Of a stretch of DNA of 64,000 nt, positions 12,678 through 62,396 are shown piece after piece. Source of the DNA: Desulfonema magnum (lineage in GTDB: Bacteria > Desulfobacterota > Desulfobacteria > Desulfobacterales > 4be13). How positions within the stretch are numbered: position 1 is the first letter of the stretch; each line of letters opens with the position of its first letter. The stretch is from assembly GCF_017377395.1 (NCBI RefSeq), contig NZ_CP061800.1, positions 4,237,633 to 4,301,632 on the forward strand. Direction: 5' to 3'. The notes below the pieces were generated by a model that saw only the letters and a list, made by a program, of their open reading frames with translations, ran no database searches and was not told the DNA's origin. Position numbers and translations under genes: made by a program.

Positions 12678-12696
12678 AAAATTGAAAGAAATCTTT
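12641..12696 (+). repeat. 28-bp perfect tandem duplication that breaks the kinase gene
   Basis: The unit beginning CCCGGATGAAAAATTG is present twice back to back (12641–12668 and 12669–12696). As 28 is not divisible by three, the second copy shifts the frame and gives a TGA at 12675–12677. With one copy the protein would read DEKLKEIFLPFHQLGD, the normal ATPase G-box region of a histidine kinase. Confidence 0.93.
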
Positions 12697-13557
12697 CTGC
12701 CTTTTCATCAACTCGGAGACAGGCTGACTCGGAGTAAGGGAACCGGTCTGGGCCTTGGAATCAGTCAGAAGCTTGTACATGCCATGGGCAGTGAATTGTA
12801 TGTAAAAAGCAAAAAAGGACAGGGCAGTGTTTTCTGGTTTACCCTGGATTTACCTGAAACTGTTCAAAACAGTGAGCTATTGGAAAAAACTAAAAATATC
12901 ACTGGTTATGTTCCTTCTGACAAGGCGGTTTATAAGATTCTGATCGCAGATGACGCGGAAAAAAATCGCTTGGTCTTAAAAGATATGCTGTTCCCCTTAG
13001 GTTTTGAAATTGCAGAAGCAACTGACGGACGCGATGCCCTGGATAAGCTGTCAGAATTTAAGCCGGACATGATTCTGATGGATCTGATAATGCCAGTGAT
13101 GGACGGTTTTGAGGCCATAAGACAAATCAGGCAGATACCTGACTTCAGAAAGGTCATTATCATAGCTGTGTCGGCAGTTGCGGACCTTCCGGCAAGGACG
13201 AAGCGCGCAGAAATAGGATGTGATGATTTTATTGAAAAGCCTGTCAATGTTGAAAAGCTTCTGAAAAAAATAAAGCTTTACCTGAATCTGAACTGGGTTT
13301 ATGAAGATGAAACCGGCCCCCGGGAGATCAGCATTCGGCCTGAAACCGAACCTGTGATTCCGCCTCCGAAGGAAAATATCGCCAGGCTTCTCAATGCGGC
13401 CATGATGGGTGATATAGACAGTGTTCGGAAACAGGCCAAAGCGATTCAGGCCTCGGATCCGAAATTTATTCCGTTTGGAAAAAAGATTGACGAGTTTGGA
13501 AAGCAATTTCAGTTAAAAAAAATTAAGAAATTTATTAAACAATATATGGAAGATTAA
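12682..13557 (+). CDS. C-terminal part of the split hybrid kinase: end of HATPase plus receiver domain
   Basis: The 291-codon frame, opened at a TTG without a convincing ribosome binding site, begins with IFLPFHQLGDRLTRSKG and GTGLGLGIS (G2 box), the second half of the ATPase domain interrupted upstream. A full receiver domain follows at about residues 88–205: IADD acidic pocket, ILMDLIMPVMDG phospho-acceptor Asp, later Ser/Ala and Lys (FIEKPVN). The last 75 residues are helical and might act as an HPt-like or linker segment, without a recognisable phospho-histidine. It was almost certainly one protein with the upstream kinase. Whether it is made separately, by frameshifting or only after loss of the duplication cannot be told from the sequence. 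Confidence 0.8.
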   Translation: MKEIFLPFHQLGDRLTRSKGTGLGLGISQKLVHAMGSELYVKSKKGQGSVFWFTLDLPETVQNSELLEKTKNITGYVPSDKAVYKILIADDAEKNRLVLKDMLFPLGFEIAEATDGRDALDKLSEFKPDMILMDLIMPVMDGFEAIRQIRQIPDFRKVIIIAVSAVADLPARTKRAEIGCDDFIEKPVNVEKLLKKIKLYLNLNWVYEDETGPREISIRPETEPVIPPPKENIARLLNAAMMGDIDSVRKQAKAIQASDPKFIPFGKKIDEFGKQFQLKKIKKFIKQYMED

Positions 13558-13623: not shown

Positions 13624-15590
13624 CTGATTATAACGGAGTCAGGGCAGGCCGGTCAGACCCTGTAAGGCCGGTATGTTTGTAGCAGTTCCGGAGTGCGAAA
13701 AAGCATTTTTCGCAGGCGCAAAAATATAATTTTTGCACTCCGGAGCCGCTTAGAGCGGTATATTTGTAGCAGCAGCTCCGGAGTGCGAAAAAGCATTTTT
13801 CGCAGGCGCAAAAATATAATTTTTGCACTCCGGAGCCGCTTAGAGCGGTATATTTGTAGCAGCAGTTCCGGAGTGCGAAAAAGCATTTTTCGCAGGCGCA
13901 AAAATATAATTTTTGCACTCCGGAGCCGCTTAGAGCGGTATATTTGTAGCAGCAGTTCCGGAGTGCGAAAAAGCATTTTTCGCAGGCGCAAAAATATAAT
14001 TTTTGCACTCCGGAGCCGCTTAGAGCGGTATATTTGTAGCAGCAGTTCCGGAGTGCGAAAAAGCATTTTTCGCAGGCGCAAAAATATAATTTTTGCACTC
14101 CGGAGCCGCTTAGAGCGGTATATTTGTAGCAGCAGTTCCGGAGTGCGAAAAAGCATTTTTCGCAGGCGCAAAAATATAATTTTTGCACTCCGGAGCCGCT
14201 TAGAGCGGTATATTTGTAGCAGCAGTTCCGGAGTGCGAAAAAGCATTTTTCGCAGGCGCAAAAATATAATTTTTGCACTCCGGAGCCGCTTAGAGCGGTA
14301 TATTTGTAGCAGCAGTTCCGGAGTGCGAAAAAGCATTTTTCGCAGGCGCAAAAATATAATTTTTGCACTCCGGAGCCGCTTAGAGCGGTATATTTGTAGC
14401 AGCAGTTCCGGAGTGCGAAAAAGCATTTTTCGCAGGCGCAAAAATATAATTTTTGCACTCCGGAGCCGCTTAGAGCGGTATATTTGTAGCAGCAGTTCCG
14501 GAGTGCGAAAAAGCATTTTTCGCAGGCGCAAAAATATAATTTTTGCACTCCGGAGCCGCTTAGAGCGGTATATTTGTAGCAGCAGTTCCGGAGTGCGAAA
14601 AAGCATTTTTCGCAGGCGCAAAAATATAATTTTTGCACTCCGGAGCCGCTTAGAGCGGTATATTTGTAGCAGCAGTTCCGGAGTGCGAAAAAGCATTTTT
14701 CGCAGGCGCAAAAATATAATTTTTGCACTCCGGAGCCGCTTAGAGCGGTATATTTGTAGCAGCAGTTCCGGAGTGCGAAAAAGCATTTTTCGCAGGCGCA
14801 AAAATATAATTTTTTGCACTCCGGAGCCGCTTAGAGCGGTATATTTGTAGCAGCAGTTCCGGAGTGCGAAAAAGCATTTTTCGCAGGCGCAAAAATATAA
14901 TTTTTGCACTCCGGAGCCGCTTAGAGCGGTATATTTGTAGCAGCAGTTCCGGAGTGCGAAAAAGCATTTTTCGCAGGCGCAAAAATATAATTTTTGCACT
15001 CCGGAGCCGCTTAGAGCGGTATATTTGTAGCAGCAGTTCCGGAGTGCGAAAAAGCATTTTTCGCAGGCGCAAAAATATAATTTTTGCACTCCGGAGCCGC
15101 TTAAAGCGGTATATTTGTAGCAGCAGTTCCGGAGTGCGAAAAAGCATTTTTCGCAGGCGCAAAAATATAATTTTTGCACTCCGGAGCCGCTTAGAGCGGT
15201 ATATTTGTAGTAGCAGCAAGAGCGGTATATTTGTAGTAGCAGTTCCGGAGTGCGAAAAAGCATTTTTCGCAGGCGCAAAAATATAATTTTTGCACTCCGG
15301 AGCCGCTTAGAGCGGTATATTTGTAGCAGCAGTTCCGGAGTGCGAAAAAGCATTTTTCGCAGGCGCAAAAATATAATTTTTGCACTCCGGAGCCGCTTAG
15401 AGCGGTATATTTGTAGCAGCAGTTCCGGAGTGCGAAAAAGCATTTTTCGCAGGCGCAAAAATATAATTTTTGCACTCCGGATACGCTTGGAACTGCCTAA
15501 GTCAGCAGCATTGCCCGCCAGGCATGATGAATGGCAAAGATATCGTCCCCATGTGGCGTTACCGGCCTCCCCCGGATCCGTTATCGTCAG
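13624..15590. repeat. MITE-like element, family GATTATAACGGA, copy 1, carrying an amplified internal array
   Basis: The left end (CTGATTATAACGGAGTCAGG, 13624 on) and the reverse complement of the right end (CTGACGATAACGGATCCGGG, ending 15590) are imperfect inverted repeats. Left and right flanks inside the ends resemble those of the single-hairpin copy at 59585–59924: CCCTGTAAGG…GGTATGTTTGTAG on the left, and the words TAAGTCAG, GGCATGATGAATG and GGCCTCCCC on the right. The middle is a tandem array of about twenty 90-bp units. Confidence 0.8.
13684..15481. repeat. Tandem array of ~20 copies of a 90-bp hairpin unit
   Basis: The unit repeats exactly every 90 bp; GCACTCCGGAGCCGC recurs around 13741, 13831, 13921 and onward. 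Each unit has 10-nt arms TCCGGAGTGC/GCACTCCGGA around an A/T-rich interior with a smaller GAAAAAGC/ATTTTTCGC stem, joined by a GCCGCTTAGAGCGG linker that is itself palindromic. Copies are almost identical; exceptions are one extra T near 14813, one G-to-A near 15105 and a short partial duplication at about 15205–15240. As 90 is divisible by three, long open frames appear on both strands, but they are by-products of the repeat. Confidence 0.95.
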
Positions 15591-15619: not shown

Positions 15620-17740
15620 ATGAAAGAAATATATAAAGAAACATATCTCCAGGAGGCTGAGGAACACTTAGCCAGTATTGAAGAAGCCATATTGGATATC
15701 GAGGATAATCCTGATGATAAAGAGAGCATTAATCGCCTTTTTCGTGCAATTCACACCATCAAAGGATCCGGTGCCATGTTCGGATTTGATGATATCGCCG
15801 GCTTTGCCCATCACCTGGAAACTGTTCTTGAAAAAGTTCGTAAAGGGATTCTGCCCGTAACCAGCCAGCTTATTGATTTGGTTCTTGCCTCACGGGATCA
15901 GATAAAGATTATGCTGGATGCCACCCACGGAGGAGCCGAAGCAGATATTGAACTCAGCGGCAAGATAATTGGCGCTCTGGAATACCTGCTGTCGGAAGCG
16001 GAAAATGTCGGCGATTCTGACCTGAAAAGCGTCTCTTCTCTAAAAAACAGCAAAAAAGATGAAATGACCTGTCGCATCAGATTTCACCCCAAACCTGATA
16101 TTTTCGAATCCGGCACGGAGCCTGCTCTGCTTTTGGAAGAGCTTCGGAACTTCGGAGAATATAATATTGTGGCGCATACACATAAGATTCCACAGCTAAA
16201 AGATATTAATCCTGAATTATGCTACATCCATTGGAATATCATTCTGACCACTTGTAAAGAACTTGATATGATTAAGGATGTATTTATTTTTGTTGAGGAC
16301 AGGTGTGACTTGAAAATTGATCTTATTGACACGCAATTCACCACAAACAATGTGGAAAGTCATAAAAGGGTCGGTGAGATTCTTATTGACCGGGGGGATC
16401 TGTCGTCTGATGAACTCATAAAGGCATTGAATATCCAGAAACGGGTCGGCGAGATACTGATAGAGAACAGGGCCATTGATCAGGACGCAGTTGATGCGGC
16501 GCTGATTGAACAGGAGCATGTCAGACAAATCAGAAAAAAACGCCGCGAAGCTGTCTCATCTTCGAGTATCAGAGTGGCCGCGGATAAGCTTGACAATCTT
16601 ATAAACCTTGTGGGAGAACTGGTGATCACCCAGGCGCGTCTGACCCAGGTCTCTTCTGACATAGATAATATCGAATTGGCAAATCCTGTGGAAGAAATAG
16701 AGCGGCTGACGGTTGAGCTCCGAGACTGTGCGCTCAACATGCGTATGGTCCCTATCGGAACCACTTTTGGCAAATTCAGACGCCTGGTACGCGACCTGTC
16801 CGCGGAACTTGGAAAAGAGATCAACCTGGTCACTGAAGGGGGGGAGACTGAGCTGGATAAAACCGTTATCGAACGTCTCAGCGATCCCCTTGTTCATCTG
16901 ATCCGAAACAGTATTGATCACGGTATCCGATCACCGAAAGAGCGGGAACACTTTGGAAAGCCCCGGACCGGAAACATTTACCTGACAGCAGCTCACCGGG
17001 GTGCCAAAGTGTTCATCACCATCAGAGACGACGGCATGGGGATAGACCCGGAAATTGTCCGGGCAAACGCGGTGGAAAGCGGCCTGATTTCAAAGAATGC
17101 GGAGCTTTCACAGGAAGAGATATTTTCACTGATCTTTGCCCCTGGTTTTTCCACTGCCAGCCAGGTGACAGATGTATCCGGCCGGGGCGTGGGATTAGAT
17201 GTCGTGAAACGGAAGATAGATTCTCTGGGAGGAACCATTCAGATCAGCAGCGAAAAAAAACGGGGAACTACCATCAGTTTGTCTATGCCTCTGACATTGG
17301 CCATTATAGAGGGCTTGCTGGTAGAGGTGGACGGAACCAGTTTTATTCTGCCCCTCTCTCTTATTAATGAATGTACAGAACTGACAGACACTCATATTGA
17401 AAAAGCCCGCGGCAGAAATGTGATTTCAGTGAGAGGAAAATTGCTTCCTTTTCTCCGTCTGCGTGAGACATTTGCCATCTCCGGAACAAAACCCCGCATA
17501 GAACAGGTTGTCATCACAGAAGTTGAAAATTTTCGGGTGGGGATTGTTGTGGATGAAATCATTGGCAATCTCCAGACGGTCATTAAACCGCTTGACAAGG
17601 TGTACCGTGAAGCCAAAGGCGTTTCCGGCGCAACAATTATGGGAGACGGAAGGGTGGCCCTTATCCTGGATGTTCCGGGATTAATCCGCTATACGGAGAA
17701 AGAAGAGGAAAAGAATATCAGGAACGCATATGAGAGGTGA
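15620..17740 (+). CDS. cheA: CheA-type chemotaxis histidine kinase
   Basis: A 706-residue protein. The HPt domain at the N-terminus has FRAIHTIKGSGAMFG (phospho-His 45). A middle region (about 140–300) includes a duplicated RVGEIL(I) motif and takes the place of the usual CheY-binding domain. A dimerisation segment follows, then the HATPase with the N box LIRNSIDHG (about 427), IRDDGMGI and GRGVGLDVV, and finally a C-terminal CheW-like domain (about 555–695) for receptor coupling. CheA autophosphorylates and passes phosphate to CheY/CheB-type receivers. The start at 15620 has a weak GAGGTA upstream. No cheW, cheY or receptor gene is adjacent, so it may serve a dispersed or non-flagellar chemosensory pathway. 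It begins 29 bp after the end of the repeat-bearing element. Confidence 0.93.
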   Translation: MKEIYKETYLQEAEEHLASIEEAILDIEDNPDDKESINRLFRAIHTIKGSGAMFGFDDIAGFAHHLETVLEKVRKGILPVTSQLIDLVLASRDQIKIMLDATHGGAEADIELSGKIIGALEYLLSEAENVGDSDLKSVSSLKNSKKDEMTCRIRFHPKPDIFESGTEPALLLEELRNFGEYNIVAHTHKIPQLKDINPELCYIHWNIILTTCKELDMIKDVFIFVEDRCDLKIDLIDTQFTTNNVESHKRVGEILIDRGDLSSDELIKALNIQKRVGEILIENRAIDQDAVDAALIEQEHVRQIRKKRREAVSSSSIRVAADKLDNLINLVGELVITQARLTQVSSDIDNIELANPVEEIERLTVELRDCALNMRMVPIGTTFGKFRRLVRDLSAELGKEINLVTEGGETELDKTVIERLSDPLVHLIRNSIDHGIRSPKEREHFGKPRTGNIYLTAAHRGAKVFITIRDDGMGIDPEIVRANAVESGLISKNAELSQEEIFSLIFAPGFSTASQVTDVSGRGVGLDVVKRKIDSLGGTIQISSEKKRGTTISLSMPLTLAIIEGLLVEVDGTSFILPLSLINECTELTDTHIEKARGRNVISVRGKLLPFLRLRETFAISGTKPRIEQVVITEVENFRVGIVVDEIIGNLQTVIKPLDKVYREAKGVSGATIMGDGRVALILDVPGLIRYTEKEEEKNIRNAYER

Positions 17741-17808
17741 AACTGTCTGATTTTGAACCACAGATTTACACGGATTATACGGATTTCTCAGATTGAAAAA
17801 ATCCATTA

Positions 17809-18196
17809 GGCGGGCAAGTTGGTTCGTAGTTCCGCCTTTAGGCGGGCAAGTTGGTTCGTAGTTCCGCCTTTAGGCGGGCAAGTTGGTTCGTAGTTCCGCC
17901 TTTAGGCGGGCAAGTTGGTTCGTAGTTCCGCCTTTAGGCGGGCAAGTTGGTTCGTAGTTCCGCCTTTAGGCGGGCAAGTTGGTTCGTAGTTCCGCCTTTA
18001 GGCGGGCAAGTTGGTTCGTAGTTCCGCCTTTAGGCGGGCAAGTTGGTTCGTAGTTCCGCCTTTAGGCGGGCAAGTTGGTTCGTAGTTCCGCCTTTAGGCG
18101 GGCAAGTTGGTTCGTAGTTCCGCCTTTAGGCGGGCAAGTTGGTTCGTAGTTCCGCCTTTAGGCGGGCCGGCACCGCCTAAAGGCGGAACTACGAAC
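17809..18196. repeat. Tandem array of eleven 32-bp hairpin units plus an inverted terminal copy
   Basis: The unit GGCGGGCAAGTTGGTTCGTA + GTTCCGCCTTTA recurs every 32 bp from 17809 to 18160. Consecutive units form the palindrome CCGCCTTTAGGCGG. The array ends with GGCGGGCCGGCACCGCC followed by an inverted unit (AAAGGCGGAACTACGAAC). It lies between the convergent cheA and diguanylate cyclase genes, where a hairpin series could block read-through; that role is inferred. Confidence 0.93.
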
Positions 18197-44355: not shown

Positions 44356-44411
44356 AAATCACAAGTCACAAATCACAAATTACAAATCACAAATCACAAA
44401 TCACAAATCAC
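44356..44411 (+). repeat. Heptanucleotide tandem repeat (AAATCAC)x8 directly before a ribosome binding site
   Basis: Eight 7-bp units, six exactly AAATCAC and two with a single change (AAGTCAC, AAATTAC), end directly against AGGAG, the Shine–Dalgarno sequence of the reductase gene at 44423. Copy-number slippage would change the spacing between promoter or leader elements and the ribosome binding site without touching the coding frame. Confidence 0.9.
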
Positions 44412-44422
44412 AGGAGATATTT

Positions 44423-49526: not shown

Positions 49527-49549
49527 ACATCCGTTGTCACAGCTTTCTA

Positions 49550-49830
49550 ATTATAACGGATTTGGGGGAGAACATAACTTTCTGAAATTATCAGATCAGA
49601 ACATGCTGTTCTCTCCGAATGTCATTCCGGGAAAAACTGGTGCGTTGTTCGATTTGCAATGCCACGAAGGCACAAAAACACGAAGTCTCACAAAGGCTCT
49701 CTGTGTCTCCCTGTCTTTGCGGCGGCATTCTCTTTCCGGTTAAAAAAAAAGCCGCACACGGTCCGGCTTTCTGAGAATGTCACGGTTTTCCCCGGAATGG
49801 TGTGGCCTCCCCTGAATCCATTATAATCAG
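49550..49830. repeat. MITE-like element, family GATTATAACGGA, copy 2
   Basis: Left end ATTATAACGGATTTGGGGGA at 49550, right end inverted (TCCCCTGAATCCATTATAAT) to about 49830. The interior differs from the other two copies and has its own nested arms (CATTCCGGGAAAAACTG against CACGGTTTTCCCCGGAATG) and an AAAGCCG/CGGCTTT hairpin. It starts 23 bp after the stop of the FG-GAP gene and ends 15 bp before the 54-bp repeat array. Confidence 0.75.
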
Positions 49831-49844
49831 CAGTTTTTTTTTCA

Positions 49845-50449
49845 AGCCCACGAATTTTTTCCGGAGTGCAAAAATAGAGCGAAGCGGTTTTTTGCATAAG
49901 CCCACGAATTTTTTCCGGAGTGCAAAAATAGAGCGAAGCGGTTTTTTGCATAAGCTCACGAATTTTTTCCGGAGTGCAAAAATAGAGCGAAGCGGTTTTT
50001 TGCATAAGCTCACGAATTTTTTCCGGAGTGCAAAAACAGAGCGAAGCGGTTTTTTGCATAAGCTCACGAATTTTTTCCGGAGTGCAAAAACAAAGCGAAG
50101 CGGTTTTTTGCATAAGCTCACGAATTTTTTCCGGAGTGCAAAAACAGAGCGAAGCGGTTTTTTGCATAAGCCCACGAATTTTTTCCGGAGTGCAAAAAAC
50201 AGAGCGAAGCGGTTTTTTGCATAAGATCACGAATTTTTTCCGGAGTGCAAAAAACAGAGCGAAGCGGTTTTTTGCATAAGCCCACGAATTTTTTCCGGAG
50301 TGCAAAAAACAGAGCGAAGCGGTTTTTTGCATAAGCCCACGAATTTTTTCCGGAGTGCAAAAATAGAGCGAAGCGGTTTTTTGCATAAGCCCACGAATTT
50401 TTTCCGGAGTGCAAAAACAGAGCGAAGCGGTTTTTTGCATAAGCTCACA
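49845..50449. repeat. Tandem array of ~11 copies of a 54–55-bp unit
   Basis: CCGGAGTGCAAAAA recurs at 49861, 49915, 49969, 50023 and so on, every 54 bp; three or so units have an extra A and are 55 bp. Each unit holds TTTTCCGGAGTGCAAAAA, then TAGAGCGAAGCGG or CAGAGCGAAGCGG, then TTTTTTGCATAAG, so TGCAAAAA…TTTTTTGCA forms a hairpin closed over a GAGCGAAGCGG loop. The same core, in both orientations, builds the array at 57.6–58.5 kb, and its TCCGGAGTGC half is shared with the 90-bp array at 13.7 kb. Confidence 0.93.
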
Positions 50450-52257: not shown

Positions 52258-52313
52258 AAATTGAGAATTGAAAATTGAGAATTGAAAATTGAGAATTGAA
52301 AAATGAGAATTGA
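52258..52313 (+). repeat. Heptanucleotide tandem repeat (AAATTGA/GAATTGA), eight units
   Basis: Beginning on the base after the NifX-like stop codon, eight 7-bp units alternate between AAATTGA and GAATTGA (one is AAAATGA). The last units form one arm of the hairpin at 52299–52336. Confidence 0.9.
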
Positions 52314-52336
52314 AAGTTTTTTCAATTCTCATTTTT
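52299..52336 (+). terminator. Hairpin with T-run between the NifX-like and Mrp genes
   Basis: AAAAATGAGAATTGAAA and its exact complement TTTCAATTCTCATTTTT are separated by four bases and end in five Ts. The stem is A/T-rich, so termination may be partial. It sits just before the Mrp ribosome binding site (AAGGGGG) and could attenuate expression of that gene. Confidence 0.55.
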
Positions 52337-57108: not shown

Positions 57109-57633
57109 ATGATAAAGAAACAGCTTCAGATAACAACACTTTCCCTTGAAGAAACTCAGCTCCTGGGACAAAAAACAGGTGAACTGATCAATGGCGGGAC
57201 CGTTATCGCGCTCACCGGGGACCTTGGCAGCGGAAAGACTTCTTTTATTCAGGGATTGGCCAAAGGGCTCGGAGTTCCGAATGAATATTATGTCACAAGC
57301 CCTAGTTATACGCTGATAAATGAATATCCGGGCAGATGCCCGCTGTTTCATGCTGATCTTTACCGTCTTGAACACGTTGAGGATATTGAAGAAATCGGCC
57401 TTTATGAAATCCTTGACAGTGAGGAGGGTGTGGTTGCTATCGAATGGGCGGACAAGTTCAGGGAAATCTTACCCGATCATATTGCCATACATCTTGAGAT
57501 AGCAGATGATGAATCGCGAAAAATCTCTATTTCTGCGGACAGCCCTGAGAATATCACACTGACAGAACGTATTTCCGATATTTATAATCAGCAGATCGAA
57601 AAAATTTCGAGATCAAAAGGAGTGCAAAAATAG
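57109..57633 (+). CDS. tsaE: tRNA threonylcarbamoyladenosine biosynthesis ATPase TsaE
   Basis: A 174-residue P-loop ATPase: TLSLEETQLLG, Walker A ALTGDLGSGKTSF (about 34–46), TSPSYTLINEY and HADLYRLE, then EWADKF. It acts with TsaB and TsaD to transfer the threonylcarbamoyl group onto A37 of tRNAs decoding ANN codons. The Shine–Dalgarno sequence before the ATG is weak. The final ten or so residues and the TAG stop (57631) are read from the first unit of the repeat array (GGAGTGCAAAAATAG), so the original C-terminus seems to have been replaced. The family is usually about 150–160 residues, so the catalytic domain is complete. Confidence 0.93.
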   Translation: MIKKQLQITTLSLEETQLLGQKTGELINGGTVIALTGDLGSGKTSFIQGLAKGLGVPNEYYVTSPSYTLINEYPGRCPLFHADLYRLEHVEDIEEIGLYEILDSEEGVVAIEWADKFREILPDHIAIHLEIADDESRKISISADSPENITLTERISDIYNQQIEKISRSKGVQK

Positions 57634-58531
57634 AGCGAAGCGGTTTTTTGCATACGCCGCAAAAGGTTTCTGCAAAAAACCGCTTCGCTCTATTTTTGCA
57701 CTCCGGAAGGGTTTCTGCAAAAAACCGCTTCGCTCTATTTTTGCACTCCGGAAAAGGTTTTCGAGCTGCTGATAATGCGAAGCGGTTTTTTGCATACGCC
57801 GCAAAAGGTTTCTGCAAAAAACCGCTTCGCTCTATTTTTGCACTCCGGAAGGGTTTCTGCAAAAAACCGCTTCGCTCTATTTTTGCACTCCGGAAAAGGT
57901 TTTCGAGCTGCTGATAATGCGAAGCGGTTTTTTGCATACGCCGCAAAAGGTTTCTGCAAAAAACCGCTTCGCTCTATTTTTGCACTCCGGAAGGGTTTCT
58001 GCAAAAAACCGCTTCGCTCTATTTTTGCACTCCGGAAAAGCTTTTCGAGCTGCTGATAATGCGAAGCGGTTTTTTGCATACGCCGCAAAAGGTTTCTGCA
58101 AAAAACCGCTTCGCTCTATTTTTGCACTCCGGAAGGGTTTCTGCAAAAAACCGCTTCGCTCTATTTTTGCACTCCGGAAAAGGTTTTCGAGCTGCTGATA
58201 ATGCGAATCGGTTTTTTGCATACGCCGCAAAAGGTTTCTGCAAAAAACCGCTTCGCTCTATTTTTGCACTCCGGAAGGGTTTCTGCAAAAAACCGCTTCG
58301 CTCTATTTTTGCACTCCGGAAGGGTTTCTGCAAAAAACCGCTTCGCTCTATTTTTGCACTCCGGAAGGGTTTCTGCAAAAAACCGCTTCGCTCTATTTTT
58401 GCACTCCGGAAAAGGTTTTCGAGCTGATGATAATGCGAAGCGGTTTTTTGCATACGCTGCAAAAGGTTTCTGCAAAAAACCGCTTCGCTCTATTTTTGCA
58501 CTCCGGAAAAGCTTTTCGAGCTGCTGATAAT
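57619..58531. repeat. Higher-order tandem array: 142-bp units with nested 45-bp subunits
   Basis: CGAGCTGCTGATAATGCG marks the units at 57762, 57904, 58046, 58188, 58420 (here CTGATGAT) and 58517. Spacing is 142, 142, 142, 232 and 97 bp. The differences equal plus two and minus one copies of a 45-bp subunit (GGTTTCTGCAAAAAACCGCT…TTTTTGCACTCCGGAAG). Each 142-bp unit also has the inverted core, so TGCAAAAAACCGCTTCGC and its complement form a long hairpin of more than 30 bp at the left edge. It lies between the convergent tsaE and MEMO-like genes. Confidence 0.93.
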
Positions 58532-58582: not shown

Positions 58583-58638
58583 TATCCCAAATCCCGAATC
58601 CTGAATCCTGAATCCCAAACCCCGAATCCCAAATCCCA
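58583..58638 (+). repeat. Heptanucleotide tandem repeat (AATCCCR), eight units
   Basis: Units TATCCCA, AATCCCG, AATCCTG (twice), AATCCCA, AACCCCG and AATCCCA (twice), period 7, end a few bases beyond the stop codon of the MEMO-like gene, which is on the opposite strand. Confidence 0.88.
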
Positions 58639-58643
58639 AATTT

Positions 58644-59495: not shown

Positions 59496-59584
59496 GGATA
59501 TCCCTCCTTTTTTAAATGAGTTAAGACCTCTCAGGTTTTGAAGTTTCAGAAAAAAGAGATCGCCCGATATTACACAAATATACT

Positions 59585-59924
59585 GATTATAACGGATTTA
59601 GGGGAGGGCCGACCAAGCCCTGTAAGGGCGGCATATTTGTAGTAATTTAGGCAATTCCGAACGGATCCGGAGTGCAAAAATTTTATTTTTGCGCCTGCGA
59701 AAAAGCATTTTTCGCACTCCGGAGAAAATATCGGAAAACCCGCTTATGCTTAAGTCAGCCGTATTGCCCCCCCCTGCCAGGCCCCGTAAGGGCGGCATAT
59801 TTTCAGCAAACCTGCTGTTGCAAATATGCCGCCCTTACGGGGTCTGGTCGGCCCGGCATGATGAATGCTACAAATATGTCGCGTCCACGGGGCTTTAACA
59901 GCCTCCCCTAAATCCGTTATAATC
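59585..59924. repeat. MITE-like element, family GATTATAACGGA, copy 3, with a single central hairpin
   Basis: Perfect 23-bp terminal inverted repeats (GATTATAACGGATTTAGGGG + AGG). Inside are GCCCTGTAAGGGCGGCATATTTG-like arms and one copy of the TCCGGAGTGC hairpin (59666–59723). It is the unamplified form of the element at 13624–15590. Confidence 0.88.
59666..59723 (-). repeat. Single 58-bp TCCGGAGTGC hairpin, opposite orientation to the 13.7-kb array
   Basis: The reverse complement begins TCCGGAGTGCGAAAAATGCT and ends TTTTTGCACTCCGGA. It differs from the 58-bp hairpin of the 90-bp units at only a few inner bases. Confidence 0.88.
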
Positions 59925-60361
59925 AAAAAATAAAATAGAAACATATCCAGTGGCTTTATTCAATATTTTTTTGGGAAACTGGAGGTTTCTCGTGAGTATT
60001 TATATGAAAATTAATAAAGTTAAGAGTTCTTTCATGTTTCGTTGTAAGCGAACCGCTCATGACCGTTTATTTGAACTTCCCTTTACTGAGGATATTTTTC
60101 TTGCATATAAGCTGATATTATAGTAAAAATTTTCTGTGTTTTTTCATACAGGTGTCAGGTGTCAGGCGTTAACTATCAGAAAAAACACTGAAAATTTCAT
60201 ATTTTCTTGCCACCGAAAAACCATGGCTGTCTGAAAAAAAGCGTCAGGAGGGATGTAAAGAATTTATCAGGTTGTTGTAATTAGAAACAAAGGGCTAATC
60301 TGTATGTTGACTCTCCTTTTTTGAGTTTCAACTGATTTTTATTAAGAAAGGGTGATTTGCA
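59925..60361. other. Intergenic region upstream of a small membrane protein gene
   Basis: AT-rich, no gene. A GTGTCAGGTGTCAGGC short direct repeat lies near 60154. The promoter for the downstream gene should be here but is not obvious. Confidence 0.45.
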
Positions 60362-60755: not shown

Positions 60756-62396
60756 TCACTTTAAAAATATTTTTCGCCTGCGGAGCCATTCGGATATTTT
60801 TGAAATTGGAAACTGAAAAACTGAAACAAGCAGAGTGATGACAAGGCAAATCATGGCAAACAGATCTCCGAAACAGGTATAAAATGTTTTTTGGTTCAGC
60901 ACCGGAACAGAACAAGTCATAACCGCATCTTCAAAAAGCGGGGTGGTGCTGATAACTCTGCCCGCAGGGTCGGCAAATCCGCTGATACCCGTGTTGGCTG
61001 ACCGTATTAAGGACCGCTTGTTTTCCACTGCTCTGAATATGGTCATGGAAAAATGCTGATACGGCGCGCTGGTGTTGCCATACCATGCGTCATTGGTAAT
61101 ATTGATCAGCAATCCCGCGTTATTCTTTGCCATCATCCGGGAAAGATTTGGGAAAATAATTTCATAGCAGATTTGCAGACCCAGGCTGTAATTATCAAAC
61201 GGAATTGTGTTACCCTCTTTTCCTTGTGTGAAATCACCGACATGCTCCACAATTTTACCCAGAAAAGGCAGCCACTTTTTTAATGGAACATATTCTCCGA
61301 ACGGAACCAGATGGGTCTTGTCATATTGCCCGGAAATCGTTCCGTCCGGGTTTATCAGATAAACGCTGTTATAGTATTCTGTGTGATTTTTGTGCATAAA
61401 GGACGGGCTTCCGATCAGGAAGCCTGCCCCGGTTTTTTGCATGCCTTTTAAAACCATTTCAGTCAGTTTGACATTATACAGAAAATAAAAAGGTGTGGCA
61501 GTTTCAGGCCATACCACAAGGTCAGGATTATCTTTTCTGGCAGAAAAAGACAAATCAATATATTTTTGTATGGTCTCCATTCGAAATTCAGGGTCCCATT
61601 TTTTTGCCTGATCAATATTTCCCTGGACAATTGTAACCCGTGCGGACGGAGCATCAGAGATCATTTCATCAACGGAACTTACACGATATTTTCCATAAGA
61701 CCAGACCACGCTGAAAACAAAGACAAATGTAAATGCTGATATGGCTGCAACACGTTTTGAAATTGTCATTCCCTGCCATTCTTTCCCTGTCAGACAAAGA
61801 AATATCAGAAAAATTGAGCTGTTGGATAAAATAATCAGAAAAGACACACCATATACGCCCAATATATCTGAAATCTGTATCAGATACAGATTGTTAAACT
61901 GGGAATATCCCATCAGTTCCCAAGGAAATCCTGAAAAAAGAAATGAGCGCACATATTCCAATGAGACCCATAAGACAGGGATCAAGGTAAAACCCGCAAC
62001 AGGTTTGGAAAACAGCCTGATGATCCCTGTTGAAAAAACAGCCACATAAAGGGCAAGATACGCGGAGAAAAGGAACAGTACAGGCACACTCACATATAAA
62101 GGAAGGCCTCCATATGTTTTCATTGTATAAGCAAGCCAGTAAGTAAGGGTGAGATAATGGACAAGTCCTGTGACAAAGCCAAGACGAAATCCGTCCTTTA
62201 AAGAGACATTCTTTAATGCCAGCAGTAACGGAACAATGGCAAACCAGGCAAACCCGGCAATGCCGGTCTTGGGAAAAGCGCCGGTCAGCAGCAAACCGCT
62301 TGACACAGCTAAAATGAAATTGAAAATTGAAAATTGAAAATTGAAAATTGGTTTTGAATGCCAAATGTCGGGCCTATGTCCTGATTTTATTTTCAT
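60756..62396 (-). CDS. lnt: Apolipoprotein N-acyltransferase
   Basis: About 546 residues from the ATG at 62396 (a TTG five codons upstream is the alternative; neither has a strong ribosome binding site). The N-terminal half has about six transmembrane helices. The nitrilase-like half carries the catalytic triad Glu in VVWPETATPF (about 295), Lys in YDKTHLVPFGEYVP (about 360) and Cys in LQICYEIIFP (about 408), and ends with a last membrane helix. It adds the third acyl chain to lipoproteins in the inner membrane, where the lipoprotein nuclease of this window would be a substrate. Residues about 17–27 (FNFQFSIFNF) are encoded by a heptanucleotide repeat, so the reading frame depends on its copy number. 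It starts 17 bp after the LOG-family gene. Confidence 0.9.
   Translation of the reverse strand: MKIKSGHRPDIWHSKPIFNFQFSIFNFILAVSSGLLLTGAFPKTGIAGFAWFAIVPLLLALKNVSLKDGFRLGFVTGLVHYLTLTYWLAYTMKTYGGLPLYVSVPVLFLFSAYLALYVAVFSTGIIRLFSKPVAGFTLIPVLWVSLEYVRSFLFSGFPWELMGYSQFNNLYLIQISDILGVYGVSFLIILSNSSIFLIFLCLTGKEWQGMTISKRVAAISAFTFVFVFSVVWSYGKYRVSSVDEMISDAPSARVTIVQGNIDQAKKWDPEFRMETIQKYIDLSFSARKDNPDLVVWPETATPFYFLYNVKLTEMVLKGMQKTGAGFLIGSPSFMHKNHTEYYNSVYLINPDGTISGQYDKTHLVPFGEYVPLKKWLPFLGKIVEHVGDFTQGKEGNTIPFDNYSLGLQICYEIIFPNLSRMMAKNNAGLLINITNDAWYGNTSAPYQHFSMTIFRAVENKRSLIRSANTGISGFADPAGRVISTTPLFEDAVMTCSVPVLNQKTFYTCFGDLFAMICLVITLLVSVFQFPISKISEWLRRRKIFLK
62318..62350 (-). repeat. Heptanucleotide repeat inside the 5' coding region of lnt
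   Basis: AATTGAA is repeated four times plus a partial unit (period 7) and is read on the minus strand as part of the lnt frame. The downstream membrane helices start directly after it, and no ATG lies between the repeat and the first helix. Confidence 0.85.

Follow-up and report, generated by a model that had tools for sequence, protein, structure and literature searches.

Tandem amplification, probably in place, of a REPIN nested in MITEs of Desulfonema magnum

The stretch of Desulfonema magnum DNA analysed here (the window, 64,000 nucleotides) corresponds to C1:4237633-4301632 of a genome that consists of a single contig of 8,027,777 bp. At 13624-15589 the window holds a feature that is probably a tandem array of REPINs within a short palindromic MITE, itself within a MITE of an IS256/Mutator-like transposon, amplified in place. 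Confidence in the REPIN and MITE anatomy is high, and confidence in the mechanism of array growth proposed below is moderate. The window array is one of dozens in the genome, which range from 3 to 35 units. The statistics given here come from one contiguous sample of 2 Mb (C1:2400001-4400000) and from pattern counts over the whole genome.

The composite element (13624-15589, no strand assigned) was delimited by matches to terminal inverted repeats (TIRs) and by alignments; it comprises the outer MITE, what remains of a second palindromic MITE, and the array of REPINs. It starts with CTGATTATAACGGAGTCAGGGCAGG at 13624 and finishes with CCTCCCCCGGATCCGTTATCGTCA at 15589; the left TIR, CTGATTATAACGGAGTCAGGGCAGGC (13624-13649, + strand), and the right TIR, GGCCTCCCCCGGATCCGTTATCGTCA (15564-15589, - strand), were identified from the sequence and from alignment to a simple copy of the same MITE. 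Inside the left end lies a decayed member of a different family of palindromic repeats, the CCCTGTAAGGGCGGCATATTTGTAG type (13656-13686, + strand), and the aligned simple copy has CCCTGTAAGGGCGGCATATTTGTAG at this place; the array linker is in part derived from this decayed palindrome. The array itself (13687-15481, + strand) consists of 20 units with a period of 90, each a 58-bp REPIN followed by a 32-bp linker, as given by TRF and by counting of the 20 REPIN cores (TCCGGAGTGCGAAAAAGCATTTTTCGCAGGCGCAAAAATATAATTTTTGCACTCCGGA), which are spaced at 90 (17 times), 91 (once), and 116 (once). TRF reports a 90-bp array at 13681-15216 with 17.1 copies and a 99% match, which runs on to 15488 past one irregular unit; TRF and unit comparison place a 26-bp internal duplication, AGAGCGGTATATTTGTAGTAGCAGCA, in that unit (15205-15242, + strand), and two of the 17 regular units differ from the consensus, by one base each. 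The first REPIN (13687-13744, + strand) is made up of the REP TCCGGAG-TGCGAAAAAgcaTTTTTCGCA, with GGAG directly 5' of the stem, a spacer, and the inverse REP. It is followed by the locus-specific linker GCCGCTTAGAGCGGTATATTTGTAGCAGCAGY (13745-13776, + strand), defined by the unit consensus and constant between units. Sequence comparison identifies the segment after the array (15484-15517, + strand) as the right arm of the nested second MITE, the TIR of which is CAATRCTGTTGACTTA...TAAGTCAACAGCATTG.

The amplified hairpin is thus a REPIN, with two REP-type palindromes whose GGAG heads face outward. The unit folds into an outer stem that encloses two hairpins (z = -6.6; none of 200 shuffles was equally stable), which is the clover form drawn for the REPINs of P. 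fluorescens SBW25 (PMC3116915). The array is flanked by open reading frames at 12682-13557 and 15620-17740. A coding repeat was considered and rejected, since the units sit between these two genes, both on the + strand; open frames that cross the array are a side effect of the period being a multiple of three. A CRISPR array was rejected as well, since the linkers are the same in every unit and there are no unique spacers. True CRISPR arrays are found elsewhere in the 2-Mb sample, with repeat GTTGACCAAAGACCCGGAAATGGAGGGGATTGAAAC at C1:4196672-4202318.

The simple copy of the array-bearing MITE lies at 59584-59927 (no strand assigned; alignment of both ends) and holds a single REPIN (59666-59723, - strand), in an orientation relative to the MITE opposite to that in the array copy. 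The flanks of the two copies align on both sides, first through the terminal repeat and then through the interior, so that the preliminary description was right to join them in one MITE family with homology beyond the repeat core, and to contrast one hairpin with about 20. It also located the array correctly, with the right end now set at 15589; its count of some 20 units stands, with the small correction that one of them carries the 26-bp internal duplication.

The preliminary description had also proposed searches for the terminal repeat and for a transposase matching the element ends, and both were productive. With up to 3 mismatches allowed, the terminal repeat TGATTATAACGGATTYRGGGGAGG is matched 506 times genome-wide and its reversed control 0 times, which excludes chance; a 1363-bp element with the same terminal repeats encodes an intact 419-aa IS256/Mutator-like transposase (NF033543 IS256, E = 7e-11, under its cut-off; PF00872, E = 3e-4, just under its cut-off), of which two more intact copies, 62-64% identical, and several decayed ones are present. 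In 51 short elements of the 2-Mb sample, the 8-mers one base outside the repeats are on average 67% identical (control, 32-42%) and reach at least 85% identity in 22, which amounts to a family-wide target-site duplication of about 8 bp; the sequence of the window copy has no such duplication at its borders. The shared ends, the transposase copy, and the family-wide duplications show that the outer element is a MITE of the usual kind, belonging to an IS256-like transposon. The hairpin was previously taken for the MITE's own core, a view that fails in the 2-Mb sample, where the GGAG-REP is present in 6 of 52 MITE copies and absent from 46. Elsewhere the REPIN lies at the centre of a palindromic element of about 133 bp with ends CAATRCTGTTGACTTA and TAAGTCAACAGCATTG, within yet another (third) palindromic element, or by itself in unique sequence. 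At C1:3021400-3022221 there is a 127-bp array of 6.5 copies, the unit of which includes a terminal repeat of a MITE and a CCCGTAGGGACGGCAT palindrome; MITE ends, too, are therefore amplified in tandem.

The genome contains 730 exact GGAG-REPs (reversed control, 0), and in an unbiased count over the 2 Mb GGAG is the top 4-base word 5' of perfect stems of at least 8 bp, enriched 21.8-fold. These repeats have the character of REPs and REPINs: a short palindrome in high copy number, intergenic in the case of the window array, with a conserved tetranucleotide at the foot, inverted pairs that fold as hairpins, and a RAYT flanked by inverse REPs. The head is GGAG and not GTAG or GTGG, the two heads used in search models for REPs (PMC6006769); the foot tetranucleotide has been worded as "most often GTAG" (PMC8266576). 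No GGAG head was found in the limited set of published REP literature searched, nor did a literature search of limited scope return a paper on the repeats of this organism. Among 116 relatives, 10 carry GGAG-REPs with the tested stem, and within the named genome collection such REPs are almost confined to Desulfobacterales; the RAYT is present in 5 of the 116, a set that coincides only in part with the 10, and most of the assemblies are fragmented.

Three of the eight Y1 transposase genes in the genome encode intact RAYTs, 64% identical, which score above the cut-off of NF047646, match TnpA_REP (PDB 4er8), and conserve the HUH, Tyr, and Asn residues; in RAYT A3 these are H65-Y66-H67, Y124, and N128 (NF047646, 101 bits against a cut-off of 80; PDB 4er8, E = 3e-15). 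All three are flanked by arrays of GGAG-tagged palindromes with differing stems. The RAYT at C1:7646214-7646756 has 8 + 5 head-to-tail copies on one side and 9 + 12 on the other; its open frame extends 5' into the REP array, to 479 codons, so that the array is open to read-through in one frame. A RAYT fragment is located 3' of an 18-copy array, and a related RAYT in another genus lies between GGAG-TGCAAAAG...CTTTTGCA palindromes. Arrays of a different palindrome, CCCCGTAGGGGCGGCATATTTGTAG, enclose two further Y1 loci, namely the 166-aa IS200-like Y1 genes at C1:3078534 and C1:3075442, which are about 3 kb apart and each bounded in this way.

In E. coli TnpA_REP the stretch contacting the GTAG head is WQ..EH..R (PMC6006769). 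In the alignment the RAYTs retain H-x-H, the catalytic Tyr, and Asn, but the stretch corresponding to this one reads WW-NYWDYCPR, with different residues at the contact positions; judged from the alignment, these altered residues may explain why the head is GGAG and not GTAG. The motifs NHYH, W[WN], and YLLxNP fit no row of Table 1 in PMC6006769. GGAG-headed REPs, together with a RAYT clade whose head-contact region is unlike that of E. coli TnpA_REP, constitute a natural test of head recognition.

In the 2-Mb sample there are 160 REPIN cores at 36 places, 25 of which are single. The REPIN arrays have 35, 31, 23, 20, 10, 8, 3, and 3 cores at periods of 77, 74, 92, 90, 73, 117, 113, and 139, respectively, where those of 23 and 10 cores each merge two neighbouring clusters; across loci the array periods are 66, 74, 77, 90, 92, 113, 118, and 139-144. 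The search for hairpin arrays that the preliminary description had proposed thus finds them at other loci, with up to 35 copies. The linker differs at every locus and is composed of local flank, from which it follows that each array grew in place. Since the same REPIN is found elsewhere with differing linkers, and other hairpin families behave alike, amplification is considered to be seeded by the hairpin. The units of noncoding arrays with at least 3 copies recur at 3 or more other places in 50 of 53 cases, whereas 163 of 500 segments drawn at random from intergenic DNA do so (odds ratio 34, P = 3e-19); the array units also form better folds than random intergenic DNA does (P = 9e-7). Two arrays have a unit with no other copy in the 2-Mb sample, one of them being an array of 32-bp units in the window (17806-18167). 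The arrays show no marked preference in position relative to neighbouring genes when compared with all gaps. The GC skew turns near 3.4 Mb in the sample, and single-REP arrays on the + and - strands are too few to judge a strand bias of the arms relative to replication.

In many arrays a single REP is repeated head to tail together with its outer flank. Two of these lie in the window: 11 single GGAG-REPs with a period of 54 (49844-50448, + strand), which directly adjoin a third MITE copy at about 49549-49829, and an array of inverse GGAG-REPs (57665-58508, - strand), which is capped on its inner side by one opposite REP (57619-57652). An opposite REP caps the tail (inner) side in 14 of 22 single-REP arrays and the head (outer) side in none of the 22 (P = 1e-4). 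Single-REP arrays are therefore one-armed REPINs, in which one arm was multiplied and the other, where kept, persists as a single cap. The array at 17806-18167 consists of 11 perfectly identical units, TTAGGCGGGCAAGTTGGTTCGTAGTTCCGCCT, of another palindrome family, AAAGGCGGAACTACGAAC; their 100% identity suggests that this array is very young.

Breakpoint microhomologies, which were read by eye and without a null comparison, range overall from 0 to 15 nt, and some breakpoints lie inside hairpins. At C1:4221019 a 9-nt direct repeat, GAAAAATTC, is present at both array ends; the homology is 13 nt at C1:2756248, 15 nt at C1:3419350, and 2 nt at C1:3669007, and there is none at C1:4324277. The unit at C1:2772283 starts inside the hairpin loop, and the array at C1:2509772 stops in the middle of a REPIN. 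Such varied breakpoints favour slippage of a nascent strand at the hairpin and would be unexpected from a site-specific cut alone. Variants are freely assorted among units in two sister arrays. Seven sites vary in the period-77 array, and nearly all combinations of them occur, even for sites 5 bp apart (four-gamete test); neighbouring units in it are no more similar than distant ones. In the period-92 array neighbouring units are similar (P = 0.006). The assortment points either to conversion of short tracts between units or to mixing by the assembler. The active homogenisation suggested in the preliminary description thus receives some support, with the caveat that both unit number and variant assortment depend on the assembly.

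In the proposed mechanism a single-strand transposase, the RAYT, would first disperse its REPIN. Once inserted, the whole REPIN or one of its arms, along with some bases of local flank, would be duplicated in place: a replication fork would stall at the hairpin, the nascent end would slip back to an upstream site through short homology, and the hairpin and flank would be recopied, possibly many times per event. Exchange or conversion between units would then spread and homogenise variants. Within this scheme we infer the polymerase step, the dispensability of the RAYT for array growth, and any function that the arrays may have in the cell.

A contribution of the RAYT to growth is possible, because RAYT-linked arrays are longer (median copies, 7.45 in RAYT-linked families and 4.9 in others; P = 0.03) and the one-arm unit ends near the REP foot. 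In its full form, where the RAYT cuts single-stranded DNA 5' and 3' of the REP and re-inserts or concatenates flank and REP beside the parent to build the array, this route is a minor possibility. RAYT genes are themselves bounded by arrays, one-arm units span the outer flank to just past the 3' foot of the REP, where TnpA_REP can cut (PMC8266576), and such a role has been proposed for BIMEs (PMC2817692); against it, 21 of the 53 arrays come from families not found beside any Y1 gene examined, breakpoints are variable and include hairpin loops and direct repeats of 9-15 nt, and every locus has its own linker. Amplification of REPINs arm by arm in a dedicated RAYT reaction, with reiterative copying of flank and REP up to the REPIN centre, is an unlikely variant; if true, the array, not the dispersed REPIN, would be a second replicating form of the element.

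As the sole route of growth, unequal crossing-over that depends on RecA, between direct repeats lying by chance on either side of a REPIN, would account for the shuffling of variants among units and for the similar neighbours in the period-92 array. It is improbable, as the first duplication requires repeats and most readable ends share only 0-15 nt, and as arrays are overwhelmingly of dispersed repeats, mostly of palindromic families, and not of random intergenic DNA. Inflation or homogenisation of a short array by the assembler would fit near-identical units and an assortment of variants independent of neighbours, a pattern that polishing could yield, but is very improbable for a single-contig genome with dozens of arrays that each have a distinct linker, recurrence of the same variants in several units, and partial units at array ends. 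The earlier view that the MITE amplifies its own central hairpin during transposition, which would fit a pair of MITE copies of which one holds 1 hairpin and the other 20, and the presence of an IS256-like transposase in the genome, can be set aside as most improbable, given the rarity of any GGAG-REP among MITE copies and the two longest arrays of the same REPIN (35 and 31 units), which have no MITE terminal repeat in the roughly 1 kb examined on each side.

Conversion of a palindrome into an array, previously thought undescribed, has precedents in tandem clusters or units reported for several systems (PMC3116915; PMC3733652; PMC2817692). P. fluorescens SBW25 has ordered tandem clusters of near-identical REPINs including flanks, the largest of 4 REPINs, for which a second mechanism of formation was inferred (PMC3116915); the arrays described here share the inverted REP doublet with its hairpin or clover fold, tandem repetition with flanks, and clusters beside RAYT genes, and differ in a GGAG rather than GTAG/GTGG-type head, in 20-35 units rather than 4, and in one-arm arrays with an inner cap. 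Tandem units are known for E. coli BIME-2, and a RAYT reaction has been proposed for BIME dynamics (PMC2817692); REP pairs in tandem and a RAYT flanked by them are common to both, whereas the REP sequence, the locus-specific linkers, and the many long arrays set D. magnum apart. In many genomes REPs are repeated along with stretches of flanking DNA that vary in length (PMC3733652), and these GTAG/CGTC palindromic repeats are likewise tagged short palindromes that form dimers with outward tags and clusters reiterating REP and flank; the GGAG tag is absent from the literature consulted for comparison, and the bacterial group is another. Eukaryotic MITEs reported to turn into satellites (reviews PMC9659126 and PMC6947457) offer a parallel for a tandem array arising inside a MITE, with the difference that what is amplified here is a REPIN, an element distinct from the MITE that contains it. 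What is new is the array length, the GGAG head, and the one-arm pattern; tandem REPIN clusters were already known.

For the origin of REP, BIME, and REPIN arrays, the RAYT and REPIN papers suggest either a reaction of the RAYT or some second mechanism that they do not specify, and the preliminary description correctly sensed that the matter is unsettled. Many arrays of D. magnum still show the parent REPIN and readable breakpoints, so that the alternatives can be tested by counting.

The window contains repeats of other kinds. Heptamers are repeated in tandem at 44356-44412 (AAATCAC), 52258-52315 (AATTGAG), 58584-58641 (ATCCCAA), and 62317-62350 (AAATTGA); heptanucleotide repeats resembling these occur in large sulfur bacteria. 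A 7417-codon open frame with internal repeats (21142-43395, - strand) corresponds to a giant repeat protein.
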